A DNA stretch of 64,000 nt from assembly GCA_938020525.1 (NCBI GenBank), contig CALIHW010000003.1:1-64000 (forward strand), in the 5' to 3' direction. Of the stretch, positions 35,226 through 40,772 are shown piece by piece; position 1 is the first letter of the stretch, and every line of letters starts with the position of its first letter. The translations under genes were made by a program, and so were the position numbers. Below the pieces are notes generated by a model, which saw nothing but the letters and a program-made list of their open reading frames with translations, made no database searches and was not told the origin of the DNA. This DNA is from an uncultured Granulosicoccaceae bacterium (lineage in GTDB: Bacteria > Pseudomonadota > Gammaproteobacteria > Granulosicoccales > Granulosicoccaceae).

Positions 35226-36503
35226 TCAGTAGCGAGGATTTGTCAGATCACGAAACGAATCGTTAAAGCGAGGACGTTCGTAGCGATCATCATAGAAAAT
35301 GGGTCGATCTACCACGTACCCACCCATTGAGCCAGACTGAAAAGTAACCACCGCTGTACCCATGACTGCCGCCGCTGCAACACCTGCAATAGCGATTTTT
35401 ATAATGCTATAGGGTCGCTCACCGCGAGTTTTACCGTTACGGCCATTGACCACAAAGCGAAAAGTCTTGCCTTTGAAAGTAAAAGCAGCTGTCCACAGGG
35501 GTAACAGTACATGCTTGAAGGTAGTGTTGGAATGGTTGGTGTTCAGACGATGAATTCGTTGTTGATCACCGCCAATTGCCTGAGACACATCACGACGTAT
35601 AGTCTGCTGCATAACACGTTGCGCGTGAGTAAAACCCTCGTCCAGTGCTACCTGATAAACCTCACTCTGAAAACCACTAAGATATTCTTCTGTATAGGGC
35701 ACCAGCTTTTCAAGATCCCAGGGCTCAAGCCAGTCAGTGATCTTGCGCGGCAGTGTTTTAGTCGCACCAATTAACAGATCATCAAAGTGTCTGTCTGTTC
35801 TGCCACTAACCGGAGTCCAGCGAACTTTGGGCACCATGCGGGAACGTCGGACATAACGACCATTCTCCATCACTGTCACCATACGTCTTACGTAGTAAAC
35901 ATCACCTCGCTGTCCGGTGTAGGAAGTTGCCGTGTCGCTGTCATATGTCCAGTAGGGTATGTAGACGCCTTTAAGGCTTTTGCCCTCTCGAGCATGATCT
36001 TTAAGTTTAGATGGAGCAAACCAGCGGCTTTTTATCCACTTGCTGTAGGCTGCAAACGCCTCGTCCCGATTGATCGCAAACGGCAGCAGAGCTTGAGGTG
36101 AAAACTCGTGAACCTCACCGGTACTGGTGACAACACTGGTACCACAAAAGGGACAGTCTCCAGAGTGCAGACTTTCATCAAGGTCAAACTGAGCGGCACA
36201 GTTTGGGCACTTCAGAAGCTGTTCCGTCTTTCCGAGATCACGTGTTCGCTCTAGTTTCTCAAGCCCCTTTGGCAGCGAGAGTTCGTCTATTGCGACATCC
36301 GGTATTTCTATCTCGTGGTGACGGCCACAGTAGGTGCACTTGAGGTCATCTGTGCCAATGGCATAAGCCAGATGACCACCGCAATTTGTACAGGGAAAGC
36401 GCGATTCTGCCCTGGAAGATGGTGCGTCAACAGGCGCTCCGACGCTGCCTTCAGCGTCGGGTACCTGCTTGTACGTCAGATAATCTTCGAACGGGTTACT
36501 CAA
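35226..36503 (-). CDS. Membrane-anchored double zinc-ribbon protein of an XpaC/TelA cluster
   Basis: A 425-residue protein with two N-terminal zinc ribbons (C38, C41, C56, C59 and C99, C102, C117, C120), each CxxC-CxxC. The middle has a large conserved region with W-K-SRWFAPSKLKD and KGVYIPYWTYD, then R-L-N-T-NHS. A single membrane segment lies near the C-terminus (about residues 370-388). The zinc ribbons resemble those of RNA polymerase or primosome proteins but no enzymatic site is visible. It is the last gene of the minus-strand series 39988 to 35226, 40 bases after the SPFH gene, and likely belongs to the same operon. Confidence 0.8.
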   Translation of the reverse strand: MSNPFEDYLTYKQVPDAEGSVGAPVDAPSSRAESRFPCTNCGGHLAYAIGTDDLKCTYCGRHHEIEIPDVAIDELSLPKGLEKLERTRDLGKTEQLLKCPNCAAQFDLDESLHSGDCPFCGTSVVTSTGEVHEFSPQALLPFAINRDEAFAAYSKWIKSRWFAPSKLKDHAREGKSLKGVYIPYWTYDSDTATSYTGQRGDVYYVRRMVTVMENGRYVRRSRMVPKVRWTPVSGRTDRHFDDLLIGATKTLPRKITDWLEPWDLEKLVPYTEEYLSGFQSEVYQVALDEGFTHAQRVMQQTIRRDVSQAIGGDQQRIHRLNTNHSNTTFKHVLLPLWTAAFTFKGKTFRFVVNGRNGKTRGERPYSIIKIAIAGVAAAAVMGTAVVTFQSGSMGGYVVDRPIFYDDRYERPRFNDSFRDLTNPRY

Positions 36504-36543
36504 CCGGTCTGCTTCCCATTGCCTGGCTATTGGTAACTAACTA

Positions 36544-37719
36544 TTAGCTAAGCGGCAACGGAGGCGGTGCTCCAAACAGTTCACTCAGTTCTTCTACGTC
36601 ACTGGCCATCTGCCAGTCCGCCATGCCACTTGCCCAAACCAGTGAGCTCGGTGCGAGATCACCATTCGCCAATTGCTGCTGCAGACCTTCAACACTGTAA
36701 GGCCCGGTGGCATCGCCATTAACCGCAACATGATAACGAGTGCCTCCTGGCAGCGGCGGTGGCCCGCCTCTGCCCGCGTTGCCTTGAGGTGCACTCTGAT
36801 AGTTACTCTGGTTTTGACTCTGGCCTTGACCGGGGCGTTGATAGTTGCCTTGTGGTAACTGTTGCTGACCCATGTTATTGGCCATTTGCTGACCCATTGC
36901 CAGACCTGCACCCATACCGATACCAGCACCTGCAGCACCACCTTCACTACTGGCACCCGCTTCAAGAGCAACACCAGTCTGGTAAGTCATATATCTATCA
37001 AGGTTACCGACCATACCTGCACTGGTCCGCTTATCAAGCGCTTCTTCGACTGAAGGGGGCACTGAGATATTTTCTACCAGCAGCTTGGTCAATTCCAGAC
37101 CGTACTCACCAAACTCAGGCTCAATACGTTTACCGATGATGTCACCGAGTTGTTCATAGTTAGCCGCCATATCCAGTACCGGAATACCCGCGGCACCGAC
37201 TGCCGATGAAAAGCGCGAGGTAATCAGGTTGCGCAGCTGGTCACTGATCTCTTCAACCTGAAAGTTACCATCGGTTCCAACAATCTCACGGATGAACTTC
37301 AACGGATCTGTTACCCGCACTCCGTAGGTACCAAAAGCACGCACCCGTGCAGCGCCAAATTCAGCATCGCGAATCATCAGTGGGTTTTTGGTACCCCACT
37401 TCAAATCAACAAAACGCTTGGTATTGACGAAATAAACTTCAGCCTTAAAAGGGCTGCTGAAGCCGTGATCCCAATTTAATATGGTGGACAGCACTGGCAG
37501 GTTTCGAGTCTCAAGCTCGTACATACCGGGACTGAGGACATCAGCTACCTCACCTTCATTAACAAAAACCGCAGCCTGACCTTCACGGACAGTCAGCTTG
37601 GCGCCGTACTTTATTTCGTTACCATAGCGCTCAAAGCGATAAACCATTGTGTCACTGGTGTCATCAGTCCACTCAATGATGTCTATAAATTCGCCAAATA
37701 GTTTGTCAAACAAACCCAT
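36544..37719 (-). CDS. SPFH-domain (virion core protein-like, YdjI-type) protein with C-terminal GYF_2 domain
   Basis: A 391-residue protein. The N-terminal part (about 1-230) matches the SPFH/band-7-like virion core protein group: MGLFDKLFGEFIDIIEWTDDT, REGQAAVFVNEGEVADV and a late AAN-YEQLGDIIGKRI. A Gly/Gln/Asn-rich linker (about 255-325) leads to a GYF_2/DUF4339 domain (about 329-388) with YSVEGLQQQL and W-ASGMADWQ. SPFH proteins organise membrane domains; GYF domains bind proline-rich segments. It starts two bases after telA, so cotranscription is near certain. Confidence 0.85.
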   Translation of the reverse strand: MGLFDKLFGEFIDIIEWTDDTSDTMVYRFERYGNEIKYGAKLTVREGQAAVFVNEGEVADVLSPGMYELETRNLPVLSTILNWDHGFSSPFKAEVYFVNTKRFVDLKWGTKNPLMIRDAEFGAARVRAFGTYGVRVTDPLKFIREIVGTDGNFQVEEISDQLRNLITSRFSSAVGAAGIPVLDMAANYEQLGDIIGKRIEPEFGEYGLELTKLLVENISVPPSVEEALDKRTSAGMVGNLDRYMTYQTGVALEAGASSEGGAAGAGIGMGAGLAMGQQMANNMGQQQLPQGNYQRPGQGQSQNQSNYQSAPQGNAGRGGPPPLPGGTRYHVAVNGDATGPYSVEGLQQQLANGDLAPSSLVWASGMADWQMASDVEELSELFGAPPPLPLS

Positions 37720-37721
37720 TT

Positions 37722-38906
37722 TTATGCTCCTGTAGATGTTGCGCGTGCTTGCGAGCTAGCAGATACGAGTTTGCTCTTCAGTTCGCTTTCAAGTTGTTGC
37801 AGTGTGCGTTCTGCTTCCTTTCGCTTAACCTTGCCTTCATCCGCAATACGCAGACTTTCTTCAATTGTCGCGATCAGATTCTCATTAGCACGCTTCACGG
37901 ATTCGATATCAAACACCCCGCGCTCCATTTGTTCGCGGACTTCACGATTGGCAGTGCGCAGAGTCTCTGCATTTTTCTCCAGCAGATCATTTGTTAAGTC
38001 TGTAGCGGACTTTACACTCTTCGCTGCCTCCTGTGACCGAAACACTGTCACAGACTGAGCTAACTGTTGACGCCATAATGGCACGGTGTTGACAAGGGTG
38101 GAGCTAATCTTCGATACCAGCCCTTTGTCGTTTTCTTGCACCATACGAATACTCGGCAGGCTTTGCATTGCCACCTGACGTGTAAGCATTAGATCGTGAA
38201 TACGTCGCTCAAGATCGTCGCGAGCAGTGCGCATGTCACGCAACTCCTGCGCTTTGAGCACGTCGTCAGTGTTTTCTGCCGATTTGGCAAGCGCTGGTAA
38301 CTCGACAGTGTCCAGCAGCTTGAGCTTTTCTTCACCTGCGGCAATATAAAGCTCCAATGAGTGGTAGTAGTCGAGGTTGGCATCGTATAAACGATCAAGA
38401 CTGGCAATGTCAGTTAGCAGTTTGGTTTTGTGGTCTTCAAGGTTATCTGTGATGGTATCAATCTGACGCCGCACCCCTTCGTACTTTTGCACAAACTGCA
38501 CTGCAGGTGAGGCGCGTTTGAACAATCTTGCGAAGAACCCCTGCTTCTTATTCGGATCGAGACCGGCAACATCAAAACCTCGTAGCACAGTAACCATGTC
38601 GTTGAGCTCCTGACCTGCGGGACCGACATCTTTGTTGCGCACACCTTCCAGCATGTTGTCACTGATAGTAGTCAACTGCTCCTGAGCACCACTACCATAA
38701 AAAAGAATGCTGTTCGAATCACCGAGATCAATGTCGTTCATCAGTTCTGTGATACGGGCGCGATCAGTCTGATTGGCGCTCTCCATCGTCACCATTTCAT
38801 ATTTGAGATCCGGTGATAACATTGCATCGAGCTTGGCAACATCTTCCTTTAAGGACTCATCTGTCATTGTGGTTATTGATCTGTTTTCAGAATCTGGCAT
38901 ATTCAC
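37722..38906 (-). CDS. telA: TelA-family (toxic anion resistance) protein
   Basis: A 394-residue, largely helical cytoplasmic protein. The pattern matches TelA/KlaA (toxic anion resistance): I-T-D-N-L-E-D-H, A-TEE-like coiled helices (about residues 150-250), the core LPSIRMVQENDKGLVSKISSTLVNTVPLWRQQL and the long heptad helix ATDLTNDLLEKNAETLRTANREVREQMERGVFDIE (in pieces), then a C-terminal helix. Its name comes from tellurite resistance, but on chromosomes it commonly pairs with XpaC, as it does here. It is 81 bases downstream of xpaC and two bases upstream of the SPFH gene. Confidence 0.9.
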   Translation of the reverse strand: MNMPDSENRSITTMTDESLKEDVAKLDAMLSPDLKYEMVTMESANQTDRARITELMNDIDLGDSNSILFYGSGAQEQLTTISDNMLEGVRNKDVGPAGQELNDMVTVLRGFDVAGLDPNKKQGFFARLFKRASPAVQFVQKYEGVRRQIDTITDNLEDHKTKLLTDIASLDRLYDANLDYYHSLELYIAAGEEKLKLLDTVELPALAKSAENTDDVLKAQELRDMRTARDDLERRIHDLMLTRQVAMQSLPSIRMVQENDKGLVSKISSTLVNTVPLWRQQLAQSVTVFRSQEAAKSVKSATDLTNDLLEKNAETLRTANREVREQMERGVFDIESVKRANENLIATIEESLRIADEGKVKRKEAERTLQQLESELKSKLVSASSQARATSTGA

Positions 38907-38987
38907 TCCCCTGATTAATCTCGGGCTCGGTTACGGTTAATGCTGCTATACAAGTCGCTTGTACATCTGCGGTGTTTGATAAAAAAA

Positions 38988-39845
38988 TCAAACACCCTCT
39001 TTTTCAAGTTGCATTTGTAAAACTTCAATCTGAACATCAAGCTCAGTCAGGTTATTTTCCAGCAACTTGCCCTTCTGTTCTTCAATCACAGTTTCTATGG
39101 TTTGCAGTACATTGCGAAAATTATCTTCAAGCTCGCCGTTGTCACCGTACTTATGGGTATCAGCGTATCCCTCAGTGACTCGTTGAGCACCGTCCAGATA
39201 GGTTCTTAGAAACTTTCTTGCACGCCTTAGATCACGCGGATCATCTTCGACGATATCAGTTATCTCACGCACGCCTTTAACGATATTCTTGAGCCGATCT
39301 TTCATTTCCACATTGTGGATACGATCTCTCGCCGCCTCTATTGCCAGTATCTTTTGATCTGCCTCATCAAGTATCTCAATAACTTCTTCTGACGTTACTC
39401 CAACCGCTGGCATGTCAGGCGCATTACGAGAAGGGTCTGTTCCGTAGGTGAGAACTGCACCCACTCCCGCTGCAACCCCCAGTAGCAGGCTGCTGAAAAG
39501 TGTGATTTTTGCACCGAGTAACGCACCGACAAAGATCGCTATCCCTACAATCCCTGCACCAATCATTTTATAAGGCACTGTACTGCTGCGACGAACAATT
39601 TTGCGCCGTTTCGCTTCCTGCTCAATCGCGAGCCCATTGCGCACCATGGTGGCGGCCAGCATACAAAGTGCAAAGCACACTGCAAAACCCAACGCGCTAG
39701 AGCTATTACCTCCAAGCATTCGCCACAGAGCCAGAAACAGCATTGGCATCGGCAGCAGGTACAAAAGAAAACCCCTCGCTGTTGGCACTCTCACTGGATT
39801 GTCAGGGTCGTATTTTTTCGCCCCGCCTCGTTTCAGCTGACTCAC
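38988..39845 (-). CDS. XpaC-family (5-bromo-4-chloroindolyl phosphate hydrolysis) membrane protein
   Basis: A 285-residue protein starting with GTG, with several hydrophobic segments (about residues 25-40, 50-66, 95-130) followed by a helical cytoplasmic half (about 140-285). The family name comes from a B. subtilis gene, and enzymatic activity is doubtful. XpaC and TelA are known to be genomic neighbours. The GTG overlaps the stop of the 48-residue gene upstream by GTGA, which suggests coupled translation. Confidence 0.85.
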   Translation of the reverse strand: MSQLKRGGAKKYDPDNPVRVPTARGFLLYLLPMPMLFLALWRMLGGNSSSALGFAVCFALCMLAATMVRNGLAIEQEAKRRKIVRRSSTVPYKMIGAGIVGIAIFVGALLGAKITLFSSLLLGVAAGVGAVLTYGTDPSRNAPDMPAVGVTSEEVIEILDEADQKILAIEAARDRIHNVEMKDRLKNIVKGVREITDIVEDDPRDLRRARKFLRTYLDGAQRVTEGYADTHKYGDNGELEDNFRNVLQTIETVIEEQKGKLLENNLTELDVQIEVLQMQLEKEGV

Positions 39846-39988
39846 TTAATCACCTTCACGTTCGGTCCGTCACCGCCGGAACCCATTACCCTCTCAACCG
39901 AAGGGCCTAATAAGCCAACACAGGAAACACCGCCGATCGAGCACACGAGCATCACTACACCGATCATTTTTTTCAATTTTTCAGGCAT
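39842..39988 (-). CDS. Small predicted membrane protein (48 residues) leading the XpaC operon
   Basis: ATG at 39988 to TGA at 39842 gives 48 residues: an N-terminal charged stretch MPEKLKK, a hydrophobic segment (about residues 8-28, MIGVVMLVCSIGG-VSC-VGLL) and a Gly/Asp-rich C-terminus. The TGA overlaps the xpaC start (GTGA). The spacing and its place at the head of the operon argue that it is a real gene, but no homology is recognised. A cysteine near the end of the hydrophobic segment (V-S-C) could be a lipobox-like site; this is weak. Confidence 0.6.
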   Translation of the reverse strand: MPEKLKKMIGVVMLVCSIGGVSCVGLLGPSVERVMGSGGDGPNVKVIK

Positions 39989-40097: not shown

Positions 40098-40772
40098 TCA
40101 GGTTTCAGAGGCCGCTTTTGGTCGCAATACATAGCTTGATTCAGAAACAGTTTTAAGACCCCGTTGCCTAAGGTTACCGAGCTGTTCCTCGCCACTTAAG
40201 GATTCCAGTAAATCAACCTCAAACCATTCTTCATAATGGTCTCTGACTTCAGATTCCGGCACTGAAAAAGGCGGTCCCTTCATTTCTTCCTGATCGTAAG
40301 CTATTGTAATTAAGAATATTTCTGACCCACCCGGTAAAATCGATCGCAAGTGATCAGCGTAGGATTTTCGCATTAACGGCGGTAAGGCGATTAACGCTGC
40401 TCTGTCATAAATACGGCTTACTCGAGTCAGATGCTCAGATTGCAGCTTGAAAAAATCCCCGGCATACAGAGTCCAGCCAGGAGCTCGAAAAACAGTTAAA
40501 TCGCCATCCCGCTCACAAACGGCATCTATTGACTGTTGTTTACAAAATTCTTCAAGCGCTGAAATGCTTAGATCGATTCCTATGACATGGTGGCCATACT
40601 CATGCAGCCACATCATGTCGTGGCTTCTGCCACACAGCGGTACAAACACAGTTTCACCTGATGCAGCACCGGCAGCAGTCCAGTGCTTCCTGAGAAAAGG
40701 ATTGATGTCTTGTTGCTGCCATCCGGGCTGATCTGATTTAGACCAGGCCTCGTGCCAAAAATCATGTTCCAT
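40098..40772 (-). CDS. tpm: Thiopurine S-methyltransferase (Tpm)
   Basis: A 224-residue SAM-dependent methyltransferase of the TPMT family, which methylates thiols such as selenite, tellurite or thiopurines. It starts MEHDFWHEAWSKSDQPGWQQ (split here: the FWHE/W motif), then VPLCGRSHDMMWL (SAM loop), IGIDLS, LYAGDFF and YDRAALIALPP. It lies between the XpaC operon and galE, on its own. Confidence 0.93.
   Translation of the reverse strand: MEHDFWHEAWSKSDQPGWQQQDINPFLRKHWTAAGAASGETVFVPLCGRSHDMMWLHEYGHHVIGIDLSISALEEFCKQQSIDAVCERDGDLTVFRAPGWTLYAGDFFKLQSEHLTRVSRIYDRAALIALPPLMRKSYADHLRSILPGGSEIFLITIAYDQEEMKGPPFSVPESEVRDHYEEWFEVDLLESLSGEEQLGNLRQRGLKTVSESSYVLRPKAASET

Follow-up and report, generated by a model that had tools for sequence, protein, structure and literature searches.

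What might the XpaC and TelA proteins do when they are encoded together with an SPFH scaffold? Both families are widespread, and ties to resistance against nisin and further envelope-acting agents have been described for them. The question is raised by a locus in a 64,000-nucleotide stretch (contig CALIHW010000003.1; hereinafter the window) from an uncultured Granulosicoccaceae bacterium, in which five genes code for a small membrane protein, XpaC, TelA, an SPFH protein with a C-terminal GYF domain, and a protein with two zinc ribbons. A preliminary annotation made without database searches (the sequence-only reading) had put them forward as a candidate undescribed system, with the look of a multi-part membrane-remodelling or envelope-stress module. 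We find that this operon is conserved well beyond chance, its order being fixed among marine and filamentous bacteria. What is new is the combination of the two halves in one operon, both halves and their stress links being already known. We propose, with a probability of roughly one half, that its products build an envelope-stress type of scaffold, bound to the membrane, which stabilises the inner membrane and was joined from two older units. As the fixed operon ties XpaC and TelA to an SPFH scaffold whose homologues have been studied, it offers a concrete and testable set of partners, to which it adds a small membrane protein lacking a family name.

Conservation of the gene order

For about 60 fetched gene neighbourhoods, we ran searches using models made from the window's own proteins. 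In the window's own family TelA was matched in 43 of 48 genomes, and nearly all loci with enough sequence display the complete five-gene order, which also recurs in families f44, f52, f63, f75 and f180; at least six families of Gammaproteobacteria share it. The order is also present in f37, where the small gene was not detected, and the f10 locus is truncated by the end of its contig. In f69 the zinc-ribbon gene is found at another place in the genome than the other four, which remain together, and in G295 the small gene, xpaC and telA lie about 300 kilobases (kb) from it; in the split clusters (G295, G115 and G245) the separated genes are still present in the genome.

A scan of a genome collection, from which the best 80 loci were kept (the named loci, which are not a census), recovered Granulosicoccaceae, Thiothrix, Leucothrix, Methylococcaceae, Competibacteraceae and many Rhodobacteraceae. 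The order of the window is seen in 22 of these 80, and over 30 show a roseobacter variant, namely XpaC-TelA-DUF2927-SPFH-zinc ribbon. TelA is encoded upstream of the zinc-ribbon gene in 59 of the 66 named loci with at least 3.3 kb of upstream sequence. Among 369 genomes of the class, 18 of the 21 with the zinc-ribbon gene also have the close type of TelA (Fisher P about 1e-20, uncorrected for phylogeny), and in f223 TelA lies within a few kb of SPFH in all 24 sampled genomes with SPFH. The neighbours are therefore linked in other genomes, as the sequence-only reading had required of a genuine system. In L153 (5520-6446) and most roseobacter (Rhodobacteraceae) loci a DUF2927 gene is found between telA and the SPFH gene, replacing their direct junction.

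Each half also occurs by itself: the small gene with XpaC and TelA and without the other genes in six loci (L065, L069, L072, L075, L081 and L082), and the SPFH-zinc ribbon pair without XpaC-TelA in L158, L173, L174 and others. The operon is thus a recurrent joining of two self-standing units.

The two units and their proteins

In the first unit the genes of the XpaC (PF10112) and TelA (PF05816) families are adjacent, both score above the Pfam cut-offs and their order is conserved. Hydropathy analysis of XpaC reveals several hydrophobic segments in the N-terminal half, within residues 22-135, followed by a hydrophilic C-terminal part, and finds no membrane segment in TelA. The predicted model of TelA is all-helical (mean predicted local distance difference test score, pLDDT, 77) and has no fold match in the PDB at E <= 0.001; hence we claim no mechanism from its fold. 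The same two families, adjacent and in the same order, constitute the xpaC-yaaN pair of Firmicutes (PMC3498285, PMC12791056, PMC10269926). In Bacillus subtilis both xpaC-yaaN and pspA-ydjGHI belong to the sigma-W regulon (PMC3498285), disruption of telA in Listeria increases sensitivity to nisin 4-fold and to tellurite 2-fold (PMC12791056), and in Enterococcus faecium xpaC goes up with LiaR activation (PMC10269926). Unlike the Firmicute pair, the gammaproteobacterial one is preceded by a conserved membrane protein of 30-60 residues, and here the SPFH-zinc ribbon pair comes directly after it. In the kla/tel tellurite-resistance operon of IncP plasmids the partners of TelA (KlaB) are KlaA and KlaC; the immediate neighbours of TelA here belong to other families, the kla models not having been searched genome-wide. 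A second, more distant TelA type of the same class occurs in L088-L101 without XpaC, SPFH or zinc-ribbon neighbours, except in L095, which has the full five-gene cluster and whose TelA gets a lower score from the Pfam model. Some roseobacter clusters further display a second, weakly XpaC-like gene before xpaC (L154, 1560-2390) without a Pfam match.

The small leading protein matches nothing in Pfam or NCBIfam. Among the fetched loci 39 open reading frames of its family lie directly upstream of xpaC, with the core motif MPxxL(K/Q)(K/R)xIGxxxLxxxxGxxSC. Between close relatives the synonymous differences (pS, 0.40-0.77) exceed the nonsynonymous ones (pN, 0.04-0.15); purifying selection acts on the gene. 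Because of this selection and its place just before xpaC in many families, we regard it as a real gene, and the earlier suggestion of a conserved family is borne out. The protein has a single hydrophobic segment (residues 5-32) and belongs with XpaC-TelA; none was detected in the roseobacter loci. We rejected the conserved cysteine of the motif as a general lipobox residue, as other residues, tryptophan, valine and leucine among them, take its place in several copies.

In the second unit, the SPFH protein has no membrane segment by hydropathy and bears a GYF_2 domain (residues 329-378) flanked on both sides by PPPLP motifs. All 35 complete copies from gammaproteobacterial clusters have a PPP(L/I/V/F) motif in their last 20 residues (its rate in shuffled sequences is 0.0005), and 34 of the 35 have a PP-containing motif just before the GYF domain. 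GYF domains bind proline-rich peptides, so it is reasonable to infer that the SPFH protein self-associates via its tail. On other SPFH cores of the family the tail is a SHOCT, helix-turn-helix (HTH)-like or zinc-ribbon element. The GYF domain had been assigned to the five-gene module as a whole: it is indeed present, but is not tied to TelA, for some genomes that lack TelA (f211, f231 and G745) nevertheless have an SPFH-GYF-zinc ribbon pair. This weakens the candidate role of GYF as a TelA-docking domain; the tail goes with the SPFH unit. By sequence, the solved structure closest to the GYF_2 domain is that of Myxococcus GltJ/AgmX (7z3c, E 6e-7), which combines GYF_2 and zinc-ribbon domains; it differs in being a gliding-motility protein, and the match is limited to the GYF region. 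In L083 (5510-6361), from another lineage, the SPFH protein encoded after XpaC-TelA has diverged strongly but keeps the GYF_2 tail, and there is no zinc-ribbon gene.

The zinc-ribbon protein matches no Pfam family above the cut-off. Eight cysteines (C38, C41, C56, C59, C99, C102, C117 and C120) are invariant in 24 homologues, and hydropathy indicates one C-terminal membrane segment (364-390). In its predicted model (pLDDT 78) the ribbons are accompanied by a beta domain with long strands and by a helix at the C-terminus; the fold matches, to pore-forming toxins with long strands and to secretins, were discarded as spurious (template modelling score about 0.1). It is homologous along its full length, over 328 alignment columns, to an Enterococcus gallinarum protein (hhalign 99.9%, E 1e-33; BLASTP 1e-39) that is encoded between SPFH and TPM genes, in a cluster with the component set of YdjI, YdjG and YdjH.

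These three proteins belong to the pspA-ydjGHI system of B. subtilis, which is known to act in anchoring at the membrane under envelope stress (PMC8581546, PMC11237479): the SPFH protein YdjI, together with YdjG and YdjH, anchors PspA, and YdjG and YdjH are needed for the membrane localisation of YdjI and PspA (PMC8581546), the make-up of YdjG being a pair of zinc ribbons plus another domain and a membrane segment (PMC11237479). The likeness to our second unit is twofold: 1) the SPFH protein belongs to PF13421, is soluble and has no membrane segment, the Band_7_1 model matching in B. subtilis too; 2) it stands beside a homologous membrane protein whose N-terminal part holds two zinc ribbons, going by the YdjG architecture of PMC11237479. 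The operon differs in lacking PspA and a TPM-domain protein, in gene order, in having GYF plus PPPLP in place of the C-terminal zinc ribbon of the SPFH protein, and in being joined to XpaC-TelA and the small membrane protein. The occurrence of SPFH-zinc ribbon genes beside PspA was already noted by PMC11237479, which does not mention TelA. XpaC-TelA and SPFH-zinc ribbon are thus each of a known kind, and the idea of a wholly undescribed system finds no support; we found no publication joining XpaC, TelA and SPFH, an absence from the open-access literature that is weak evidence.

A further group, typified by DUF350, SPFH-SHOCT and DUF4178 proteins, likewise couples a PF13421 SPFH core to a downstream zinc-ribbon partner gene (L162 and L164). 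It differs in its SHOCT or HTH-like rather than GYF tails, its DUF4178 partners and the lack of adjacent XpaC-TelA. In both loci the genes for DUF350 and for an SPFH protein that ends in a SHOCT-like tail are clustered with a zinc-ribbon gene, DUF4178 being found in L162; the polyamine-linked PspA operons described in PMC11237479 are relatives of this cluster.

A candidate membrane scaffold and its alternatives

The proposed scaffold would combine the following: 1) the small protein and XpaC would form an inner-membrane platform that keeps the soluble, all-helical TelA at the cytoplasmic face; 2) the tail-anchored zinc-ribbon protein would draw the soluble SPFH protein to the membrane, on the model of YdjG and YdjH acting for YdjI, and SPFH would oligomerise there. 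The GYF domains would bind PPP(L/I/V)P tails, probably those of neighbouring SPFH subunits, and thereby cross-link the assembly. Membrane damage by cationic peptides, alkaline shock or toxic oxyanions might act as triggers, upon which the assembly would concentrate TelA, as the presumed effector, at the damaged membrane and stabilise it, the part played by PspA in B. subtilis. The proposal starts from the gene order and its conservation, the homologies, membrane segments and conserved motifs, and the lack of a detected PspA; the stress link and SPFH recruitment are carried over by analogy from published work on homologues. The placement in envelope or membrane stress, which the sequence-only reading had anticipated, agrees with the homology of both halves, the sigma-W regulon (PMC3498285), the anchoring of PspA with YdjI (PMC8581546) and the Listeria TelA phenotype (PMC12791056). 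The fixed operon also suggests that a single membrane-maintenance pathway may, in B. subtilis, include both xpaC-yaaN and pspA-ydjGHI.

Several observations weigh against this scaffold. Neither unit needs the other, as SPFH-GYF-zinc ribbon occurs without TelA and XpaC-TelA without SPFH-zinc ribbon, and contact between the two is our inference. The TelA model has no significant likeness to any solved fold, PspA and ESCRT-III included. A TPM protein of the YdjH type, a key partner in YdjGHI, is missing from the five genes and from the flanking TPMT, UPRT, ThiF-like, hydrolase and epimerase genes, to which the search was limited. Promoter scans yielded no envelope-stress promoter: sigma-70 promoter and terminator counts were not above shuffles, nor were RpoE-like promoters upstream of it (1 of 41, against 0.8 expected). 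Finally, the linked genes and PspA do not exclude each other: of 15 sampled genomes that carry the linked genes, 6 have PspA, versus 76 of 369 overall (21%; Fisher P 0.09).

The strongest competitor, to which we give a distinctly smaller chance, holds that two independent modules share one promoter since both answer to envelope stress, and form no single complex. Each unit is found alone, B. subtilis keeps both as separate operons of one regulon, and two named loci with complete upstream sequence have SPFH-zinc ribbon only, all of which fit this explanation. Against it, the near-fixed order in two classes and the telA-SPFH junction of 1-4 nucleotides suggest selected co-production, which is no proof of contact.

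A bolder form of the scaffold hypothesis is doubtful: a PspA-free membrane-repair machine, whose SPFH/zinc-ribbon scaffold, with SPFH rings locked by GYF-PPPLP contacts, would use XpaC and the small protein to recruit TelA as a helical membrane effector in place of PspA. PspA (PF04012) had no match in the window's genome (93% complete), nor in G019 (a single contig), G026 and G047, so the operon does not need PspA; we hypothesise that TelA might stand in its place. Some relatives in the window's family carry PspA elsewhere, and with the above trend running opposite to replacement, replacement as a genome-wide pattern is unsupported.

Resistance to toxic oxyanions such as tellurite or selenite, in which TelA, TPMT and the roseobacter TerC would detoxify or tolerate metalloid anions with SPFH and the zinc ribbon as accessories, we consider unlikely. 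A TPMT-family methyltransferase gene, on the same strand, lies 12-292 nucleotides upstream in most Granulosicoccaceae (f1) loci and was not detected upstream of the operon in the loci of other families. Bacterial TPMT has a role in relation to tellurite, and this linkage keeps the oxyanion explanation alive, along with the name of the TelA family, the TerC-family gene upstream of XpaC-TelA in 10 named loci from roseobacters, and the 2-fold tellurite sensitivity of the Listeria mutant (PMC12791056). However, that mutant is hit harder by nisin (4-fold), the TPMT linkage is confined to one family and that of TerC to another, and the conserved core includes no reductase or transporter.

Still less probable is a regulatory device, with the zinc-ribbon protein sensing metal or redox state or binding nucleic acid and SPFH and TelA transmitting or holding the signal: the eight invariant cysteines and the scores of Firmicute and Comamonas relatives on TFIIB-type zinc-ribbon models would suit it, but the core has no linked transcription factor, and a conserved beta-rich domain, with no DNA-binding match, makes up most of the protein. 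An anti-phage role, raised by the sequence-only reading as a phenotype and by weak PADLOC matches of TPMT and the zinc ribbons, is hardly credible, as XpaC, TelA, SPFH and the small protein match no PADLOC model, the two matches are partial (methyltransferase; zinc-ribbon stretch) with no full-length component among the five proteins, and the locus is stable on the chromosome with flanks conserved in the genus.

Coordinates, junctions and the upstream gene

Table 1. Genes of the operon and its upstream neighbour, in window coordinates
Feature	Coordinates	Strand	Evidence and remarks
Small single-pass membrane protein, 48 residues, first of five genes	39842..39988	-	One hydrophobic segment
XpaC family (PF10112) membrane protein, 285 residues	38988..39845	-	Pfam (Halogen_Hydrol/XpaC) 7e-31; GTG start
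TelA family (PF05816) protein, 394 residues from GTG 38906	37722..38906	-	Pfam 3e-114
SPFH (Band_7_1, PF13421) protein with C-terminal GYF_2	36544..37719	-	Pfam 8e-99, 2e-17
Double zinc-ribbon, beta-rich, YdjG-like protein, TTG start	35226..36503	-	Eight invariant Cys; Enterococcus homology
TPMT-family methyltransferase (PF05724)	40098..40772	-	Pfam 7e-62; 109 nucleotides upstream

All five reading frames lie on the minus strand (39988 to 35226), with the first gene having the highest coordinates; their places, shared direction and domain calls agree with the sequence-only reading. The five genes do form a conserved unit, as that reading held, but in Granulosicoccaceae it extends one gene upstream to TPMT, which may be a sixth operon member specific to this family. 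An Rfam search gave no match. At the 3' end of xpaC (38971-38996) there is a perfect 10-base-pair hairpin with arms GGTGTTTGAT and ATCAAACACC and a short A/T loop; we did not count it as part of the system, counterparts of 8-9 base pairs occurring near there in just two other loci.

The TGA of the small gene and the GTG of xpaC overlap by four nucleotides (GTGA, 39845-39842). The spacer between xpaC and telA is 81 or 87 nucleotides, depending on whether telA starts at GTG 38906 or at ATG 38900, the latter being the better conserved start and giving 392 residues. The SPFH and zinc-ribbon genes are 40 nucleotides apart, the TTG start at 36503 being kept in near relatives, and telA and the SPFH gene are separated by only 2 nucleotides (37721-37720), within the 1-4 nucleotides seen in most loci.

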